Assembly (NCBI GenBank): GCA_017625535.1
Contig: JAGAKR010000021.1
Location: 1 to 64,000, forward strand
DNA length: 64,000 nt
DNA from: Bacteroidales bacterium
GTDB taxonomy: Bacteria > Bacteroidota > Bacteroidia > Bacteroidales > UBA932
Direction: 5' to 3'
Numbering within the stretch: position 1 is the first letter of the stretch; every line of letters begins with the position of its first letter. Made by a program: the position numbers and the translations under genes. The notes beneath the pieces are model-generated. The model was not told where the DNA came from, searched no databases, and worked only from the letters and a program-made list of their open reading frames with translations. Positions 34,432 to 56,647 of this stretch are shown one piece after another.

Positions 34432-34545
34432 AACCGGTTGCCATTGGGCACGCAAAATGCCACGGCACACATTTAAAAATAATTCAAAAGGCATTAAAAT
34501 ATGGTTCTACGAAAATCTTTACCCGAGATTCTCAAGTTAAAAGAA

Positions 34546-34716
34546 TTGCGGCAGGTCTTCTGACTTATTCCTCCAAAGGTGCCTTCCCATCATCTGTGAC
34601 AGTGGCCAAGATAACCAATGGATTGTTGCGGAAATTACAGCTACGGGTACAGTTCCTGATTCTCACAGGATTCCCTATTATCAACTGCCTCTGATGAAGG
34701 CAGTCACACCTCAACT
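34546..34716 (-). ncRNA. Cobalamin riboswitch (btuB operon leader)
   Basis: Read on the minus strand the leader shows the class-specific blocks in order: GGGAATCCTGTGAGAATCAGG, ACTGTACCCGTAGCTGTAA, GCCACTG, GATGGGAAGGC, and the B12 box AGTCAGAAGACCTGCC. It starts right after the promoter at 34723-34730 and ends about 50-115 nt before the btuB start codons. Adenosylcobalamin or a related corrinoid would be the ligand, shutting off btuB-btuG-btuF when B12 is plentiful. Confidence 0.95.
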
Positions 34717-34722
34717 CAACAG

Positions 34723-34730
34723 CAAAGGTA
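34723..34730 (-). promoter_or_regulatory. -7 promoter element of the cobalamin riboswitch transcript
   Basis: Minus-strand TACCTTTG fits TAnnTTTG and is placed so that the transcript starts near 34716, just at the first paired region of the riboswitch. Confidence 0.65.
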
Positions 34731-49070: not shown

Positions 49071-50507
49071 ATGGCATTTACAAATAATGTTATGATTGTC
49101 CGCCACGGACTGCTTGCAAAGCTTGTAAGGATGTGGAGAGAGGACAAATTGGTTGAAAATATTGACAGACTTCCCATTGAGTTGAGTCCAAGAAAATCCA
49201 AAGTGAAAGGGCGCTGCTGCGTACACAAAGAGCGTGCAGTATGGAAATACAAATCCCTTCCGCTGCTTGGATTTGATATGACAGATGAGAAAGATGAACT
49301 TACTCCGCTTTCTTATTATGCACAGGCTGCAATTACAAGGGAAAAGAACCTTAAAGAGGAGATCCTTACCGTAATTGATGAGGCTTGCTCTTCTTGTGTA
49401 CAGGTAAACTATGAGATTACAAACCTTTGCCGTGGTTGTGTGGCAAGAAGCTGCTACATGAACTGCCCTAAGGATGCAATACACTTCAAGAACAACGGCC
49501 AGGCCGAGATTGACCACGACAAATGTATCAGCTGCGGCATCTGCCACCAGAGTTGTCCTTACCACGCCATAGTATATATTCCTGTACCTTGCGAAGATGT
49601 ATGTCCTGTAAAGGCAATCAGCAAGGACGAATATGGCATTGAGCACATTGATGAGTCAAAATGCATCTACTGCGGAAAATGTATAAACGCTTGTCCGTTT
49701 GGTGCAATCTTTGAGATTTCACAGGTGTTTGATATCCTCCAGAGCATAAAGAGGGGTGAGAAGGTTGTTGCAATGGTTGCACCTGCTATCCTTGGCCAGT
49801 TCAGCGAGCCTATTGAGCAGATTTATGGTGCGATCAAGGCAATAGGATTCTCAGATGTGATTGAGGTTGCACAGGGTGCAATGGTAACCACAGAGAAAGA
49901 GGCTCACGAACTTGAAGAGAAACTTGAGGAGGGCCAGCCGTTTATGACAACCAGCTGCTGTCCTTCATATATACAACTCACAAAGAAACATATTCCAGAA
50001 CTTGAGAAATATGTTTCTACCACAAAATCACCTATGTACTACACTGCGGAGATTGTGAAGGAGAAATATCCTGATGCAAAAACAGTGTTCATAGGGCCTT
50101 GTATAGCAAAGAGAAAAGAGGCAAGATACCACGACAATGTTGACTATGTAATGACATTTGAGGAACTCGGCTCCATCTTTGACGGATTTGATTTGGATGT
50201 GAACAAGGTTGAGCCTTTCACAATGCCGTTCACTTCAGTTAAGGAGGCACACGGATTTGCTCAGGACGGTGGTGTTACCCAGGCTGTGAAAGTGTTCCTT
50301 GACAAAGCCAATCTCCAGGCACTTAAGGTTGCAAACCTCAACAAGAAGAACATTGCAATGCTTAAGGTTTATGCCAAGACAGGCAAATGCCCGGCACCTT
50401 TCATTGAGGTTATGGCCTGCGAGGGCGGTTGCGCAAGCGGCCCTTGTATAAGGACAGACAAGAACACATCGCAGAAGAGGATGTCTGCAGAGTTGAACAA
50501 ACGATAG
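49071..50507 (+). CDS. Monomeric [FeFe] hydrogenase with ferredoxin clusters, variant H-cluster motifs
   Basis: This is a cytoplasmic iron-only hydrogenase-type protein of 478 residues. The N-terminal half holds several cysteine clusters (about 105-220), including two 4Fe-4S ferredoxin motifs: CISCGICHQSCPYHA and CIYCGKCINACPFGA. The H-cluster domain follows (about 230-478) with TSCCPSY (usually TSCCPxW), IGPCIAKRKEA (usually MPCxxKxxE) and MACEGGCASGPC (usually MACxxGCxxGGG). These variants fit the group B-like branch of [FeFe] hydrogenases in anaerobes. It may evolve hydrogen or act as a sensor or accessory. It has its own promoter and terminator; no HydEFG is in the window. Confidence 0.85.
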   Translation: MAFTNNVMIVRHGLLAKLVRMWREDKLVENIDRLPIELSPRKSKVKGRCCVHKERAVWKYKSLPLLGFDMTDEKDELTPLSYYAQAAITREKNLKEEILTVIDEACSSCVQVNYEITNLCRGCVARSCYMNCPKDAIHFKNNGQAEIDHDKCISCGICHQSCPYHAIVYIPVPCEDVCPVKAISKDEYGIEHIDESKCIYCGKCINACPFGAIFEISQVFDILQSIKRGEKVVAMVAPAILGQFSEPIEQIYGAIKAIGFSDVIEVAQGAMVTTEKEAHELEEKLEEGQPFMTTSCCPSYIQLTKKHIPELEKYVSTTKSPMYYTAEIVKEKYPDAKTVFIGPCIAKRKEARYHDNVDYVMTFEELGSIFDGFDLDVNKVEPFTMPFTSVKEAHGFAQDGGVTQAVKVFLDKANLQALKVANLNKKNIAMLKVYAKTGKCPAPFIEVMACEGGCASGPCIRTDKNTSQKRMSAELNKR

Positions 50508-50514
50508 AAAAGAA

Positions 50515-50557
50515 TCCCGGGAAATACAAATAAGAGGCACTCCCGGGATATTTTTTT
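50515..50557 (+). terminator. Rho-independent terminator of the hydrogenase gene
   Basis: Stem TCCCGGGA (50515-50522) / TCCCGGGA (50541-50548), self-complementary, with an 18-nt loop, is followed by seven T. It isolates the hydrogenase gene from the met leader. Confidence 0.85.
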
Positions 50558-50568
50558 ACAAAAAGTGC

Positions 50569-50576
50569 TATATTTG
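50569..50576 (+). promoter_or_regulatory. -7 promoter element of the met leader and operon
   Basis: TATATTTG fits TAnnTTTG. It ends 5 nt before the ATG of the Met-rich leader ORF, so transcript start and leader start nearly coincide, and 222 nt before metY. The long distance to metY leaves room for a regulatory leader. Confidence 0.7.
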
Positions 50577-50581
50577 CACAG

Positions 50582-50665
50582 ATGAATGCAAACCGTCATA
50601 TCTATATGATTTCATCCATGCCTTCTCTGGCAATGGACATGATGGTCATGCGAATGCATCGCTAA
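50582..50665 (+). CDS. Methionine-rich leader peptide of the metY operon (predicted)
   Basis: A 27-codon ORF starts 5 nt after the -7 box. Eight of its residues are Met (1, 9, 13, 18, 20, 21, 23, 25), five of them packed in residues 18-25 before the stop. The rest has no signal peptide and two His near the ends (6, 26). It stands in front of metY-metX-thrA-asd, which together make homocysteine and methionine precursors. The pattern is that of an attenuator leader peptide whose translation rate reports charged Met-tRNA. The closing codons and stop lie inside a hairpin (50656-50670). I know of no named family for it; the call is by composition and position. Confidence 0.7.
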   Translation: MNANRHIYMISSMPSLAMDMMVMRMHR

Positions 50666-50798
50666 GATGCTCTGTTTTTCCCTTTAGATCAATCTTGGGC
50701 AGGAAGCACAAGGTTTTTCATCCGGCAAGTTTTTAATTTTTTACATTTTTCAACCAACTGCTCCTGCAGTAACGCAGGATGCCTATAAAGATTTTGTT
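50656..50798 (+). promoter_or_regulatory. Predicted attenuator region between the Met leader and metY
   Basis: Four pairings are visible. A: GCATC (50656-50660) with GATGC (50666-50670), loop holding the leader stop, then T at 50675-50679. B: CTTGgGC (50694-50700) with GCaCAAG (50706-50712), then five T (50714-50718), a terminator-like hairpin. C: GCAGGA (50699-50704) with TCCTGC (50762-50767), which excludes B. D: TCCTGC (50762-50767) with GCAGGA (50774-50779), which excludes C. B plus D against C is the alternation expected of an attenuator. I see no match to known SAM riboswitch cores. Which form is on or off is inference. Confidence 0.55.
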
Positions 50799-52082
50799 AT
50801 GTCACAATATAAATTTGATACGCTTCAAGTGCGCGCCGGCCAGCAGCCCGACCCAACTACCGGTGCCTGCATTACCCCAATATACCAGACATCCGCATAT
50901 GCATTCAGGGATGTGGAACACGGAAAGAAACTGTTTGAACTGGAGGAGGCCGGGAATATATATTCCAGACTTGGAAACCCTACTGCTGATGTCCTTGAAC
51001 AGAGGATAGCAGCTTTGGAGAAGGGTACTGCAGCAGTATCCGCAACCTGCGGAATGAGTGCTCAGTTCATTGCAATAACTGCAATATGCAAAGCGGGAGA
51101 CAACATAATCAGTTCAATGGCACTTTATGGCGGCACCTTCAACCAGTTCAAGGTGACACTTCCAAAGTTGGGTATAAATGTAAAGCTCAACAAATGCAAC
51201 AACAGGGAGGAAATAGAGAGTCTGATTGATGAAAACACAAAAGCAATATATGTAGAAACCATTGCAAACTCAGATTTCTCTGTTCCTGATTTTGATATGC
51301 TGGCTGAAATATGCCGCAAACACAAGATACTCTTCATTGTTGACAATACATTCGGATGTGCAGGCTATGTATGTGCCCCTATTGATTTTGGTGCAAACAT
51401 CATATGCCACTCCGCCACCAAATATATTGGCGGCCATGGCAACTCCCTTGCCGGCATTGTTGTTGATTGCGGAAACTTCAACTGGTTTGAAAGCGGCAAA
51501 TATCCGCAGCTCACAGAGCCATGCGCCTCATACCACAACATAAAATTTGCAGAGCACTTTGGGAACTGTGCATTTGCAGCATATCTCAGATGTGTGGGAC
51601 TGAGGGATTTCGGATGCTGTCTCTCCCCTTTCAACGCATTCCTTGTACTTACAGGATGCGAAACCCTTTCGCTCAGATGCCAGCGTACCTGTGACAACAC
51701 CCTTGCACTTGCCAGATGGCTTGAGAGCCACCCTATGGTGGAAAGGGTAAACTATCCGGGCCTTGAAAGCCATCCTTCACACCAGAATGCCCTCAAATAT
51801 CTGCGCAACGGATTCGGAGGTGTGTTCACAGTTGATCTTAAGGCAAGCAGGGAAGATACAGGCAAGTTTGTGAACAACCTGAAACTATATACACTCCTTA
51901 CCAATCTTGGAGACAACCGCTCACTCATCTCCCACCCTGCCACCACAACCCACGGCCAGTTGAGTGATGAGGAACTGCTGAGCATAGGCATTACACCAGG
52001 CACACTTAGGATAAGTGTTGGAATTGAAGATATTGAAGACCTTATTGATGATTTTGAGCAGGCTCTGGATTCCATAAAATAA
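50799..52082 (+). CDS. metY: O-acetylhomoserine sulfhydrylase
   Basis: This PLP enzyme makes homocysteine from O-acetylhomoserine and sulfide. The 427-residue Cys/Met-metabolism protein has PIYQTSAYAFRDVEHG, the YSRLGNPT signature, ALEKGTAAVSATCGMSAQF, and the Schiff-base Lys in CHSATKYIGGHGNSLAG (about residue 209). The NNLKLYTLLTNLGDNRSLISHPATTTHGQL block (in pieces) is typical of OAH sulfhydrylases. It is the first enzyme gene of metY-metX-thrA-asd, behind the Met-rich leader. The next gene, metX, supplies its substrate. Confidence 0.95.
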   Translation: MSQYKFDTLQVRAGQQPDPTTGACITPIYQTSAYAFRDVEHGKKLFELEEAGNIYSRLGNPTADVLEQRIAALEKGTAAVSATCGMSAQFIAITAICKAGDNIISSMALYGGTFNQFKVTLPKLGINVKLNKCNNREEIESLIDENTKAIYVETIANSDFSVPDFDMLAEICRKHKILFIVDNTFGCAGYVCAPIDFGANIICHSATKYIGGHGNSLAGIVVDCGNFNWFESGKYPQLTEPCASYHNIKFAEHFGNCAFAAYLRCVGLRDFGCCLSPFNAFLVLTGCETLSLRCQRTCDNTLALARWLESHPMVERVNYPGLESHPSHQNALKYLRNGFGGVFTVDLKASREDTGKFVNNLKLYTLLTNLGDNRSLISHPATTTHGQLSDEELLSIGITPGTLRISVGIEDIEDLIDDFEQALDSIK

Positions 52083-52095
52083 ATGCACCCAGGAG

Positions 52096-53115
52096 ATGGA
52101 AAAAAGGATATACAGACACAACGAGGTATTCCCGCTTGAGTGCGGAGGTTCAATTGAAAACCTTGAGATATGCTACCACATTTCCAAGGAGTTCGGATCC
52201 GGCGCTGAAAAGGGGAAAAAAGTGATATGGATTACCCACGCCCTCACGGCCAATTCAGATCCTTCCGACTGGTGGGATGTTTTGGTTGGAGAAGGGAAAT
52301 TCCTTGACCCAAGAAAATACACCATTGTATGTGCAAACATCCTGGGCTCATGCTATGGAAGCACTTCCCCCTCATCCATAAACCCTGCAACCGGAAAACC
52401 ATACCTTCTTGATTTTCCAAAAACTACCGTAAGGGATGTGGCCACCTGCCACAACATCCTTATGGAGCATCTTGGAATTGAAAAGATTGATCTCCTCACA
52501 GGAGGCTCCGTTGGTGGATTCCAGGCACTGGAATGGAGCATAATGTATCCCCACAAAATAAAGAATATGGTTCTGCTTGCGTGCAACAGCAGATTTACCC
52601 CGTGGGGAAGCGCTTTCAACGAATCAATGAGGATGGCCCTATATGCAGATCCTACATTCGCAAGCGGTGAAGGGGGAAAGGCAGGTCTTGCCACAGCCCG
52701 TTCCATCGCACTCATTTCATACAGAAGCTTTGAGGGGTACAATACAACCCAGTATGAGCAGGATGAAGACTGCACATTTCCACAAAGGGCCGCATCATAC
52801 CAGAGGTACCAGGGGAAGAAACTTGTAGACAGGTTTGACGCCTACTCTTACCTGAGTATGCTGAACCTTACAGACAGCCATAATGTGGGGCGCCACAGGG
52901 GCGGAGTGGAGAAGGCTCTGGGAATGGTTAAAGCCAGGACCGTATGCATTGGCATAGATTCTGACGGGCTCTTCCCTGTTGTGGAGCAGAAATATATGGC
53001 ACAGCATATTCCAGGTGCAAAATATCTCCAGATAACCTCTGCCTTCGGGCACGACGGATTCCTGCTGGAGTGGGAACAGATAAAGGAAATAATTGAGAAT
53101 GAAGAACTGATTTAA
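52096..53115 (+). CDS. metX: Homoserine O-acetyltransferase
   Basis: This enzyme activates homoserine with acetyl-CoA, feeding MetY. The 339-residue alpha/beta hydrolase has ITHALTANSDPSDWWDVLVGEG, the oxyanion region ANILGSCYGSTSPSS, and nucleophile Ser in LLTGGSVGGFQALEW (about residue 138). The acid and base are in GIDSDGLFPVVEQ and SAFGHDGFLLEW. It follows metY by 13 nt and precedes thrA by 15 nt. Acetyl rather than succinyl use is inferred from the MetX fold and the MetY partner. Confidence 0.94.
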   Translation: MEKRIYRHNEVFPLECGGSIENLEICYHISKEFGSGAEKGKKVIWITHALTANSDPSDWWDVLVGEGKFLDPRKYTIVCANILGSCYGSTSPSSINPATGKPYLLDFPKTTVRDVATCHNILMEHLGIEKIDLLTGGSVGGFQALEWSIMYPHKIKNMVLLACNSRFTPWGSAFNESMRMALYADPTFASGEGGKAGLATARSIALISYRSFEGYNTTQYEQDEDCTFPQRAASYQRYQGKKLVDRFDAYSYLSMLNLTDSHNVGRHRGGVEKALGMVKARTVCIGIDSDGLFPVVEQKYMAQHIPGAKYLQITSAFGHDGFLLEWEQIKEIIENEELI

Positions 53116-53130
53116 GAGAGGAGGAAAATT

Positions 53131-55599
53131 ATGCAGGTACTTAAATTCGGCGGCAGTTCGGTTGCCAATGCCGGAAATATAAATAAGGTTATAGCAATTG
53201 TAAAGAGGGCTCTGTCCAACGACAGGACAGTAGTTGTATCCTCTGCCATAAGCGGTGCTACAGACTCACTGCTTCTGATAGGCAATACTGCCAAAAGCGG
53301 GGACGAGAAATATCTTGGTCTCATTGATTCGCTTGAACAGAGGCATATTGAAATAATTGATGAACTGATTCCGGCAGAAGAATCTGAATCCATAAGGCAG
53401 ACTTGTCAGGACCTTTTCAACAAACTGAGGGAGATATGCAAGGGCGTGTTCCTGCTCAAGGAACTCACAGACCTCAGTCAGGACCATATTGTAAGTTTTG
53501 GAGAACTCCTCTCCACAAACATCATAAGTGCAAAACTGAAATCCCTGAACATAAGCCATCAGTGGAAAGACTCAAGGGAACTTATAAAGACTGAGCTCCA
53601 GGCAGGTAAAAATGCGGTAATTGATGCTGTTACAACTGCAAACATCTCCGGTTATTTTGCCAATGACCCCCACAAACTCTATATAATGCCGGGATTCATT
53701 GCATCGGATATGGCAGGACGTACAACTACCCTCGGCCGCGGCGGCTCTGATTACACTGCATCCATAATTGCCGTTGGCACCCAGGCCCGCAGGCTTGAAA
53801 TCTGGACAGATGTATGTGGAATGATGACAGCAGACCCCCGCATTGTGCCGGATGCCCGTCCTATAAGGAACATCTCCTACAAGGAGGCACTGGAACTCTC
53901 GCACTTTGGGGCAAAAGTTGTATATCCCCCAACAATACAGCCAGTTGTAAAACAGGGAATTCCAATATATGTCAAGAACACCTTTGCTCCCGACGACTTT
54001 GGGACACTCATTGAGCGCAATCCTCCTGAGGGGCAGGAGAAGATAAGGGGAATCTCTTCTTCAAACAAAATAGCCCTCCTTTCAATGGAAGGAAGCGGAA
54101 TGGTTGGTATACCGGGATACTCAAGCAAACTGTTTGATGTGCTCAGCAAAAATAATGTGAACATAATACTCATTACCCAGGCCTCATCTGTACACACAAT
54201 GTGCATTGCCATAGCGGAAGGTGATGCAGACAAAGCCAAGAAGGCTGCAGATGAACTGTTTGCATACGAGATATCACTTGGCAAAGTGGATCCTCTGAGG
54301 GTAGAGAAAGGGTTCTCAATCATATCCCTTGTAGGTGATGACATGAAGAACCAGAGCGGTGCAAGCGGAAAGATGTTTGATGCACTTGGACGCGAGGGGA
54401 TAAACATAAGGGCCATTGCCCAGGGTTCATCGGAGAAGAATGTCTCTGCTGTGCTCCACACAGAGGATGTGAATGATGCCATAAGGGCCATCCATTCTGA
54501 GTTCTTCTCAAGTTCAGCCAACAGGGTGAACCTCTTCATAGCAGGATACGGCACTGTTGCCAAAGCCCTTGTGGAGATTATTTTTGCCCAAAAGGAATCA
54601 ATCCTGCAGAGATTGGGCAAAGAACTGGTAATATGCGGAATCTGCAACAGCAGAAACTACCTGCTCAACCGCAATGGCATAGAGCAGGGCTTTGACCTTG
54701 AAAAAGGTGAAAAGAATGTTGCCAACAGATATGTGGAGGAGATATGCAAATACAAATTGAGCAACTCAATTTTTGTAGACTGCACTGCCAACAGGAACAT
54801 TGCATCGCTGTATGTAGACCTGTTCAGGAACAAGTTCTCAGTTGTGGCCTGCAACAAAATTGCAAACTCCCTCTCATATGAGTCATACAAGGAACTCTTT
54901 GCCACCGCAAGGCAGGAGAAGGTGCAATACAGATATGAAACCACAGTATGTGCCGCCCTCCCTGTACTTGAAACCATACTGCAGCTGGTGAACTGCGGTG
55001 ACACAATAAAAAGGATGGAAGGTATCCTCTCGGGGACCCTCAACTTCCTGTTCAGCAGCTATAACGGGGAAAAGCCATTTGCAACCCTGGTAAAGGAGGC
55101 TGCTGAGAAAGGGTATGCAGAACCTGACCCAAGGCTCGACCTTGCCGGCACAGATGTACTCCGCAAATTCCTCATCTCTTCCCGACAGGCAGGCTTCCCT
55201 GTTGAGACCCCGGATGTGGATTTCAATGGATTCATTCCTGAAGAGATTATGTGCAGCACCCAGACAAACTTCAAGGAATATGCAGAAGAGTTCTATGCAA
55301 AACTTGCAGATTACGAGCCACAACTGAAAGCACAATATGATGCGGCAGCGGCAAAAGGTGAAAAATTGAGGTTCATTGCAGCCCTGGATGCCACCGCCCT
55401 ACAGGAAAACGGCAAGCCGGCCTGCTCAATAAGTCTCAGGAGCATTGGCCCTGAGCATCCGTTCTACACATTGGAAGGGACCGACAATGCCGTAATCATA
55501 GAATCTGAATACTATCCCAATGCAATTGTAATAAAGGGGGCCGGCGCCGGGGCCAGACAGACTGCCGGTGGAGTTTTGAATGATATATTAAGTTTATAA
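53131..55599 (+). CDS. thrA: Bifunctional aspartokinase / homoserine dehydrogenase
   Basis: This 822-residue fusion carries two steps of the aspartate pathway. Residues about 1-310 are aspartokinase (VLKFGGSSVANAGNI; TLGRGGSDYTASI; IWTDVCGMMTADPRIV). About 315-460 are tandem ACT domains (SMEGSGMVGIPGYSSKLF; SLVGDDMKNQSGASGKMF) for feedback by threonine or a related product. About 465-822 are homoserine dehydrogenase (LFIAGYGTVAKALVEII; VVACNKIANS; GILSGTLNFLFS; YAEPDPRLDLAGTDVLRK). It gets a GAGGAGG Shine-Dalgarno. In this operon it would supply homoserine for methionine, so allosteric control may differ from classical ThrA. Confidence 0.95.
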   Translation: MQVLKFGGSSVANAGNINKVIAIVKRALSNDRTVVVSSAISGATDSLLLIGNTAKSGDEKYLGLIDSLEQRHIEIIDELIPAEESESIRQTCQDLFNKLREICKGVFLLKELTDLSQDHIVSFGELLSTNIISAKLKSLNISHQWKDSRELIKTELQAGKNAVIDAVTTANISGYFANDPHKLYIMPGFIASDMAGRTTTLGRGGSDYTASIIAVGTQARRLEIWTDVCGMMTADPRIVPDARPIRNISYKEALELSHFGAKVVYPPTIQPVVKQGIPIYVKNTFAPDDFGTLIERNPPEGQEKIRGISSSNKIALLSMEGSGMVGIPGYSSKLFDVLSKNNVNIILITQASSVHTMCIAIAEGDADKAKKAADELFAYEISLGKVDPLRVEKGFSIISLVGDDMKNQSGASGKMFDALGREGINIRAIAQGSSEKNVSAVLHTEDVNDAIRAIHSEFFSSSANRVNLFIAGYGTVAKALVEIIFAQKESILQRLGKELVICGICNSRNYLLNRNGIEQGFDLEKGEKNVANRYVEEICKYKLSNSIFVDCTANRNIASLYVDLFRNKFSVVACNKIANSLSYESYKELFATARQEKVQYRYETTVCAALPVLETILQLVNCGDTIKRMEGILSGTLNFLFSSYNGEKPFATLVKEAAEKGYAEPDPRLDLAGTDVLRKFLISSRQAGFPVETPDVDFNGFIPEEIMCSTQTNFKEYAEEFYAKLADYEPQLKAQYDAAAAKGEKLRFIAALDATALQENGKPACSISLRSIGPEHPFYTLEGTDNAVIIESEYYPNAIVIKGAGAGARQTAGGVLNDILSL

Positions 55600-55612: not shown

Positions 55613-56647
55613 ATGAAAGTAGCGGTAGTAGGGGCCACCGGACTGGTTGGCCGAAACATGTTGAAGATACTTGATGAGAGGAATTTCCCTGTAACTGAAC
55701 TTATTCCTGTTGCATCTGAAAAATCTTCGGGAAGCAGGATTTCATTCAGGGGCAAAGAGTATGTTGTATGTACTCCTGCCCAGGCTATAGAGAAAGGGGC
55801 GCAGATTGCACTCTTCTCTGCAGGAAGCGGTGTATCAAAAGAATGGGCACCCAAATTTGCCCAGGCGGGGTGTTATGTGATAGACAACTCTGCCTGCTGG
55901 AGGATGGACCCCACAAAAAAACTTGTGATTCCGGAAATAAACGGAGATGTAATTGAAAAAGGTGATTATATAATTGCCAATCCTAACTGTTCCACAATAC
56001 AGATGCTCATTGCCATTGCAGATCTGCACAAGAGGTTTAAGATAAAGAGGATAGTGGTATCTACCTACCAGTGCATTACAGGAACGGGCAAGAAGGCGGT
56101 AGACCAGATGGAGGCAGAGAGGGACGGCAAGGAGCCGCAGACAAAGGCATATCCTTACAGGATAGACCTCAACCTGCTTCCCCACATTGATGTATTCCTG
56201 GAGAACGGATATACCAAAGAGGAGATGAAGATGGTTAACGAGACCCACAAGATAATGAGGGATGAGAGCATAAGGGTCTCCCCTACCACTGTAAGGGTTC
56301 CTGTATTGGGAGGCCACAGCGAATCCATAAATCTGGAGTTTGAGAAGCCTTTTGAAATGGAGGAGATATTCAGCACCCTGAGAGGTACTGCAGGAGTTGT
56401 GGTGCAGGATGCAGTGGAGCTGGAAAACGGCGGACAGCCATCAGCAATAGGCTCTATAGAAAACCTGCCATACCCTATGCCGCTGTTCACTAAAGACAGG
56501 GATGAGGTGTTTGTGGGAAGGATAAGGAGGGACCCGTCTGTAGAAAACGGGATAAACCTCTGGTGCGTTGCAGACAATCTGCGCAAAGGGGCCGCCACCA
56601 ACACGGTGCAAATAGCGGAATTATTGCTTGAGAAGGGGTTGGTATAA
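55613..56647 (+). CDS. asd: Aspartate-semialdehyde dehydrogenase
   Basis: Asd reduces aspartyl phosphate to aspartate semialdehyde, between the two activities of ThrA. The 344-residue protein has VAVVGATGLVGRNMLKIL (NADP loop), ASEKSSGSRISFRG, the active-site Cys126 in IANPNCSTIQM, STYQCITGTGKKAVDQM, and the substrate-binding RVPVLGGHSESINLEF. It is the last gene of the met operon. Its stop lies inside the terminator stem. Confidence 0.96.
   Translation: MKVAVVGATGLVGRNMLKILDERNFPVTELIPVASEKSSGSRISFRGKEYVVCTPAQAIEKGAQIALFSAGSGVSKEWAPKFAQAGCYVIDNSACWRMDPTKKLVIPEINGDVIEKGDYIIANPNCSTIQMLIAIADLHKRFKIKRIVVSTYQCITGTGKKAVDQMEAERDGKEPQTKAYPYRIDLNLLPHIDVFLENGYTKEEMKMVNETHKIMRDESIRVSPTTVRVPVLGGHSESINLEFEKPFEMEEIFSTLRGTAGVVVQDAVELENGGQPSAIGSIENLPYPMPLFTKDRDEVFVGRIRRDPSVENGINLWCVADNLRKGAATNTVQIAELLLEKGLV

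Follow-up and report, generated by a model that had tools for sequence, protein, structure and literature searches.

A conserved methionine-codon-rich leader ORF ahead of metY-metX-thrA-asd in a Bacteroidales family: a candidate ribosome-based sensor of methionine supply

The window analysed here is the whole 64,000-nucleotide stretch of a Bacteroidales contig (GCA_017625535.1, JAGAKR010000021.1, positions 1 to 64,000), and it contains a methionine operon with metY-, metX-, thrA- and asd-like genes (Table 1). Upstream of the operon, an Fe-hydrogenase-like gene is followed by an inverted repeat with a T run, which is probably its terminator; with this repeat in between, the met operon appears to be a separate transcription unit. 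Next comes TATATTTG, which we take to be a Bacteroidetes-type promoter -7 element, and after it the leader ORF of 27 codons, eight of them for Met and five of these within residues 18-25. A previous interpretation, made by a model from the letters alone (the sequence-only reading), had placed a promoter, an ATG 5 nt after it and an eight-Met ORF here, and all of them are present. Elsewhere in the window, a cobalamin riboswitch (RF00174, 95 bits) is found at 34533-34728 on the minus strand.

Table 1. Features of the methionine operon and its leader in the window.
Feature	Position	Strand	Basis or remark
Fe-hydrogenase-like gene, upstream of the leader	49071-50507		Pfam PF02906
Inverted repeat ATCCCGGG...TCCCGGGAT with T run	50514..50557	+	By eye; missing from the terminator-scan output
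Promoter -7 element TATATTTG	50569..50576	+	5 nt upstream of the leader ATG (50582)
Leader ORF (uORF) MNANRHIYMISSMPSLAMDMMVMRMHR*	50582..50665	+	AUG frame bias; synonymous third-position changes
CATATC box, codons 6-7 (His-Ile)	50597..50602	+	Leader comparison
GCGAA, 5' flank of P1	50650..50654	+	Conserved in two alignments; includes CGA, the Arg codon preceding the last Met
Hairpin P1, GCATC-GCTAA-GATGC	50656..50670	+	Conserved, with compensatory changes
Hairpin B, CTTGGGCAGGAAGCACAAG	50694..50712	+	Also drawable in L002-L004 with mismatch or G-U pairs; by eye
TCCTGC...GCAGGA	50762..50779	+	Missing from six relatives' leaders; probably incidental
metY-like PLP enzyme	50799..52082	+	PF01053; O-acetylhomoserine sulfhydrylase by context
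metX-like acyltransferase	52096..53115	+	PF00561; name from context
thrA-like aspartokinase-homoserine dehydrogenase	53131..55599	+	PF00696, PF00742
asd-like aspartate-semialdehyde dehydrogenase	55613..56647	+	PF01118, PF02774

Mini-ORFs with the consensus M....[FH]IS.MS[KM]RMHR* were found before metY or metX in the window's family. The 86 leader entries read correspond to 78 unique ORF bodies, duplicates of a peptide or ORF being counted once; 5 incomplete entries were left out of the AUG-frame count and 8 out of the comparisons of Met fraction and folding. Internal AUGs are distributed among the three frames as 182:6:1 in the 78 unique ORFs. Taking the first ATG past the last TAnnTTTG as the start gives an open, in-frame reading in 65 of 71 cases, and T[AT]nnTTTG lies 4-13 nt upstream of the leader start codon in 47 of 86 entries, a lower bound because the script picks the farthest match. 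In the 37 unique leaders that have twelve codons before CGA, several TCN codons occur at Ser8 and at Ser11, and both Lys codons at Lys12. In the same leaders, 33 of 34 use ATA for Ile7, and C is the third base of codon 6 in 35 of 37. Many relatives keep CATA at the nucleotide level, read either as CAT Axx or as xxC ATA, about 15-17 nt 3' of the leader start codon, and no partner or role was found for it. Judged by these comparisons, the leader ORF is real, conserved and far above chance. An in-frame AUG bias of this kind would require translation, and the conservation of the ORF argues that it is translated.

The conserved end of the leader consists of GCGAA and the hairpin P1, UGCAUC-loop-GAUGCA (50650-50670 in the window). 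P1 overlaps the last Met codon and the stop codon TAA (50663-50665) sits within its loop. It was also the only site returned by the terminator scan of the window leader (50656-50670; one site, against 0.2 in shuffles). Compensatory stems were found in several relatives, as UGCAAC/GUUGCA (L179), UGCGUAU/GUAUGCA (L146) and UGCGC/GUGCA (L164, L184), with UGCAUCG/CGAUGCA as a further variant (L178, L181) and loops of 3-7 nt. On the fitted alignment 94.3% of the cells are paired, against 10-51% when the arms are slid; two pairs have columns changed on both sides and 0 of 500 shuffles reach the observed pairing, counts taken on a model-fitted alignment in which a few matches are weak or on the opposite strand. 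In family uORFs the ORF end folds better than shuffles (mean z -2.44, 64 of 74 below -1). Since changes in the stem bring changes in the peptide (RMQR*, RMRI*), it is the hairpin that is kept, rather than RMHR itself. On the other hand, P1 and GCGAA are conserved in sequence beyond the needs of a pure pairing switch. A second internal hairpin, GCGA-AUGCA-UCGC, was discarded, being lost in L168, L145, L141 and L198 by eye.

The Met codons favour certain distances from P1. Counting from CGA in the 78 leader ORFs, Met codons peak at -1 (52/78), -3 (52/78) and -4 (30/78) and are scarce at -2 (4) and -5 (4). Codons -1, -3 and -4 lie 8, 14 and 17 nt upstream of the start of P1. On the downstream side, the ribosome footprint extends about 12-15 nt beyond the A site, so P1 would stand at the leading edge of the ribosome while codons -3 or -4 are read. 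Met is absent from both positions in 21 of the 78 leaders. The leaders vary in their Met content, from a Met run in L161 (..SMMMMMRMHRKMLA) to few Met codons beyond the P1 one, as in L198 (MKKAKRDIFSKRMHR) and L049/L082 (..LLSIRMHRKDA*). The conserved CGA that precedes the last leader AUG may be read slowly: genome G000 has 43 tRNA matches, its tRNA-Arg anticodons are acg, tct, cct and ccg, and CGA is presumably read by the acg tRNA alone, via inosine wobble. Pairing of the element with tRNA-Met was rejected, being no better than that of other tRNAs. In this rough test on 20 tRNAs of G000, the top eight partners of the whole element or of its 5' part include none of the three tRNAs with a CAT anticodon, one of which ranks seventh for the 3' arm.

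Flank and stem are nearly invariant across the family while the remaining leader has diverged, and the CATA box is likewise conserved at the nucleotide level. This would suit a binding site, P1 and GCGAA being recognised by a trans-acting factor (an RNA-binding protein or sRNA) with translation of the ORF setting their accessibility. We know of no candidate factor and regard this explanation as unlikely, since it leaves the clustering of the Met codons and their spacing to P1 unexplained, and some lineages change the stem sequence yet keep the pairing. Arrest peptides such as TnaC and SpeFL stall the ribosome at the end of their ORFs, and the C-terminal ..RMHR* could do the same in response to high or low levels of Met or SAM. 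The conservation of the C-terminal residues and the frequent Met/Arg endings of the SAM-I-linked uORFs described below (RMR*, CMR*, SMRL*) fit such an arrest, which we nevertheless find improbable: no fixed C-terminal sequence with a stall site was found among these leaders, given that the stop position moves (RMHRQDA*, RMHRKDA*, RMHRKMLA*), H and R vary with the hairpin (RMQR*, RMRL*, RMHL*, RMRI*), and conservation extends to nucleotides 3' of the stop. An undescribed small aptamer that binds Met or SAM and overlaps the ORF end would account for the conservation of CATA, GCGAA and the hairpin before met genes; this is very improbable, because the in-frame AUG bias demands translation, a single 5-7 bp hairpin with a variable loop would make a poor pocket, and there is no Rfam match, although Rfam covers described families only. 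Finally, a DNA operator for a dimeric repressor, suggested by the strongly conserved inverted repeat TGCATC-N5-GATGCA near the promoter, was rejected as barely credible on the spacing of the GCATC-GATGC arms, which ranges from 4 to 9, with GCGAA on one side only, the element locked in frame at the ORF end and its distance to the promoter variable.

A different question is how the leader would act on transcription. The sequence-only reading proposed translation-coupled attenuation by Met-tRNA charging through mutually exclusive hairpins; the conserved Met-rich leader of a met operon stands, but not the exclusive hairpins or a family-wide intrinsic terminator. Its hairpin B is present and followed by GTTTTTC, but it is weak and not listed by the terminator scan. 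The repeats GCAGGA, TCCTGC and GCAGGA do occur in the window (50699, 50762 and 50774), but their alternative pairing is not conserved: in the six same-genus leaders L002, L003, L004, L006, L007 and L009, TCCTGC is absent from 6/6 and the second GCAGGA from 6/6, the first being retained in L002 and L003 only. The conserved element is P1, which that reading did not mention. We found no clear alternative cis partner for the P1 arms, with no downstream signal (mean z -0.04 and 0.04) and at most a slight one upstream (mean z -0.40 and -0.49), and cis switching of the arms was discarded. Of 54 leaders, 9 have a terminator-like site after P1, where shuffles give 1.7 (mononucleotide, 6 per leader; the site of L007, visible by eye, was missed by the script), which led us to reject intrinsic-terminator attenuation as a family-wide rule. 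Individual lineages do carry terminators (L014, L018, L255), the last being the element before metY of G481, with a clear intrinsic terminator. Textbook attenuation across the family is thus not supported, terminators being uncommon and the P1 arms devoid of an alternative partner in cis. The leader body has C>G in 44 of 54 leaders, which is compatible with Rho and is not a test of Rho. The family may well combine a conserved sensing end with a lineage-specific output, Rho-type in most lineages.

Regarding distribution, a metY match was found in 19 of 39 same-genus genomes and GCGAATGCATCGCTAAGATGC, at up to 2 mismatches, in 17, with 0 of 39 for the reversed control. A scan of genome contigs with CGAATGCATCGNNAAGATGC gave 89 stretches, of which 80 were examined as loci: a metX or metY hit follows at no more than about 250 nt in 53, the DNA stops short of the gene in two, and 25 were dropped as chance matches before counting. 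This pattern is exact outside two positions and therefore hides variation, the metX-based set being less biased. Carriers of the element include Candidatus Cryptobacteroides species. The metX gene is present in 83 of 119 family genomes, whose upstream DNA was read in 30 loci and 52 fetched regions (G505 was left out, its contig starting 55 bases before the gene). At E<=1e-4, the covariance model R1 yielded 41 matches in 40 of the 119 genomes, corresponding to 40 of 83 with metX and 0 of 36 without it (Fisher p=2e-8, to be taken as indicative since relatives are not independent). The other 43 metX-bearing genomes have no R1 match at this threshold, and among the 43 motif-lacking loci checked, most yielded no Met-rich ORF. 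Divergent versions of the element were found in L144, L158, L164, L184 and L198. In 393 order-level genomes, R1 at E<=0.001 matched 13 genomes beyond the family with 22.3-28.2 bits; eight of these loci (L247-L254) have no MetY, MetX, ThrA or Asd match, and these weak matches were treated as chance. Taken at the level of sequence, specificity of the Met-codon-rich leader for met operons within Bacteroidales is supported.

On contig C1 of G024 (L018/L021/L024), the metY and metX matches are fragmented by in-frame stops with the leader element intact, which may reflect sequencing error or gene decay.

Outside the window's family, the SAM-I riboswitch (RF00162) was found at 33 of 61 order-level metX/metY loci (24, of which 16 were extended upstream, plus 37). 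The Rfam scan of the window returned no SAM-I match, a SAM aptamer being among the findings that would have spoken against the sequence-only reading. None was found either in 20 element-bearing family loci (17 with 264 nt or more of DNA 5' of the element; L137, L142 and L151 with only 64-119), in 20 element-lacking family loci or in the whole genomes G000, G046 and G164. SAM-I is present in 106 of 149 genomes of the class and 43 of 149 of the order. Because it is widespread in the class and absent from the family loci and genomes scanned, the aptamer would appear to have been lost in the window's family, as judged by presence/absence counts.

The aptamer is followed by its first ATG at +7 to +15 in 29 of the 33 SAM-I loci, against 3.9 in shuffles, the exceptions being L343, L338, L319 and L381. 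The corresponding uORFs have 14-60 codons (20 if only the first ATG of L332 is taken), many with an AUG near the end. Their AUGs are distributed by frame as 68:8:2 and CGAATG as 17:0:0, the latter falling inside the last 45 nt in 14 of 32 distinct uORFs against 0.2 expected. Some endings are shared across families (MPRMR*, MPLMPMCMR*, MRMRPCAQ*, SMRL*, YMRMQ*). Folding of the ORF end is only mildly above shuffles (mean z -0.62, 12 of 32 below -1). In an independent draw of SAM-I loci, an ATG at +7 to +15 was found in 23 of 30 from Bacteroidales (L399-L428, which partly overlap the 33) and in 3 of 30 from different orders of the same class (L429-L458). Among the latter, L450 carries a uORF that ends in TRMR* with CGAATGCG. 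A metH-like protein begins at the ATG (+12, +13, +15 or +20) in four Bacteroidales SAM-I loci (Pfam S-methyl_trans for two), so the ATG of the uORFs lies about where a directly regulated gene begins. An ATG at this spacing, opening either a uORF or metH, suggests translational control of the nearest start codon.

The trp, his, leu and thr operons have ribosome-mediated attenuators with leader peptides. The Met leader shares with such amino-acid attenuators a short promoter-near ORF, probably translated, with clustered codons of the regulated pathway amino acid, as well as hairpins and a related gene or operon downstream. It differs in that its amino acid is the initiator residue, most Met leaders have no recognisable intrinsic terminator or exclusive pairing, and P1 has a conserved sequence that runs into the end of the ORF. 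Bacteroid-trp RNA is also of the leader-peptide type, with Trp codons, and likewise belongs to an amino-acid operon of a Bacteroidetes host; in the window leader there are Met instead of Trp codons, no Trp in the peptide and no Rfam family at gathering score, with no match to Bacteroid-trp (RF01692), T-box or SAM-I. As RF01692 is tabulated as a cis-regulatory Bacteroidetes motif (PMC2864571), amino-acid leaders are not strictly confined to the other phyla in which the sequence-only reading places them. The uORFC-8-2 before cysS is a further system of the ribosome-mediated attenuator type (PMC8632094), and the transcriptome of B. thetaiotaomicron is described as having sORFs in long 5' UTRs, generally reminiscent of leader peptides (PMC7366714). 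With the SAM-I riboswitch the leader has in common the same genes downstream in other Bacteroidales families and a comparable uORF after the aptamer, but there is no aptamer in the window or the scanned family loci and the proposed sensor is translation. The metE and ppe2 loci of Mycobacterium tuberculosis carry riboswitch-uORF pairs in which the riboswitch and a translated uORF act together, in one case on a methionine synthase gene; however, the aptamers are for B12, and the abstract contains nothing on Met-codon sensing or aptamer loss (PMC11260477). In open-licence PubMed Central text, subscription papers being outside this scope, we found no description of a Met leader peptide in bacteria or of a SAM-I-uORF arrangement in Bacteroidetes.

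The ORF, its codon bias, the hairpin, its gene specificity and the SAM-I-linked uORFs of relatives are supported by the sequences; translation, common descent, Met-tRNA sensing, the ON direction and the termination step are what we infer. We favour, with moderate confidence, a leader that reads methionine supply through the ribosome, by the mechanism and with the ancestry proposed here. Transcription would start a few nt before the leader ATG, allowing immediate loading of a ribosome. When Met-tRNA is scarce the ribosome would wait at the Met codons, with P1 just ahead, and by protecting the leader RNA or keeping P1 folded it would let RNA polymerase continue into metY-metX-thrA-asd. With plentiful Met it would pass through P1 and depart, and the free leader would be subject to premature termination, Rho-type in most lineages and intrinsic in a few. 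The SAM-I riboswitch of other Bacteroidales families probably gates translation of its uORF. Their common design (an ORF, a terminal CGA-AUG, met genes downstream and, for some of the SAM-I loci, a hairpin enclosing the stop) makes it likely that the family leader and the SAM-I-linked uORF share an ancestor; the uORFs are too different to align and convergence is possible. More tentatively, and with somewhat less than even confidence, we suggest a two-stage RNA sensor for the metX/metY operons of Bacteroidales, in which SAM-I gates the uORF and the uORF measures Met-tRNA at its terminal AUG (often CGA-AUG) before the hairpin. The window's family would have lost the SAM-I stage and kept the uORF, which came to lie at the start of transcription and gained many more Met codons; a translated amino-acid sensor would thereby have naturally replaced a riboswitch at the same genes.

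This comparison suggests how riboswitch control could yield to ribosome control at one operon. The use of Met as the control codon is surprising, given that Met also starts every protein. A group of Bacteroidales SAM-I riboswitches is predicted to control a uORF rather than the enzyme gene directly, and the Met leader could supply a reporter of tRNA charging for gut bacteria.

The Met fraction is 0.167 in the family uORFs (n=74) against 0.070 in the SAM-I uORFs (n=32). Outside the family, Met-rich leaders without SAM-I were found at 5 of 28 loci (L340, L342, L344, L386, L394); at 9 of these 28, L340 included, the gene start was not located by the script. An association of more Met with the lack of SAM-I is thus clear for the window's family against SAM-I loci, and thin elsewhere. 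In family f22 (L342, L344, L386, L394), a Met-rich leader ending in MLM[LQ]LG* (e.g. RMMDMLMLLG*) precedes metY without SAM-I, and it is possibly an independent Met leader. In two families, the leaders of L333, L319, L367, L383, L385 and L390 end in MP[L]xPMCM[RC] and are Met-rich despite a SAM-I aptamer.
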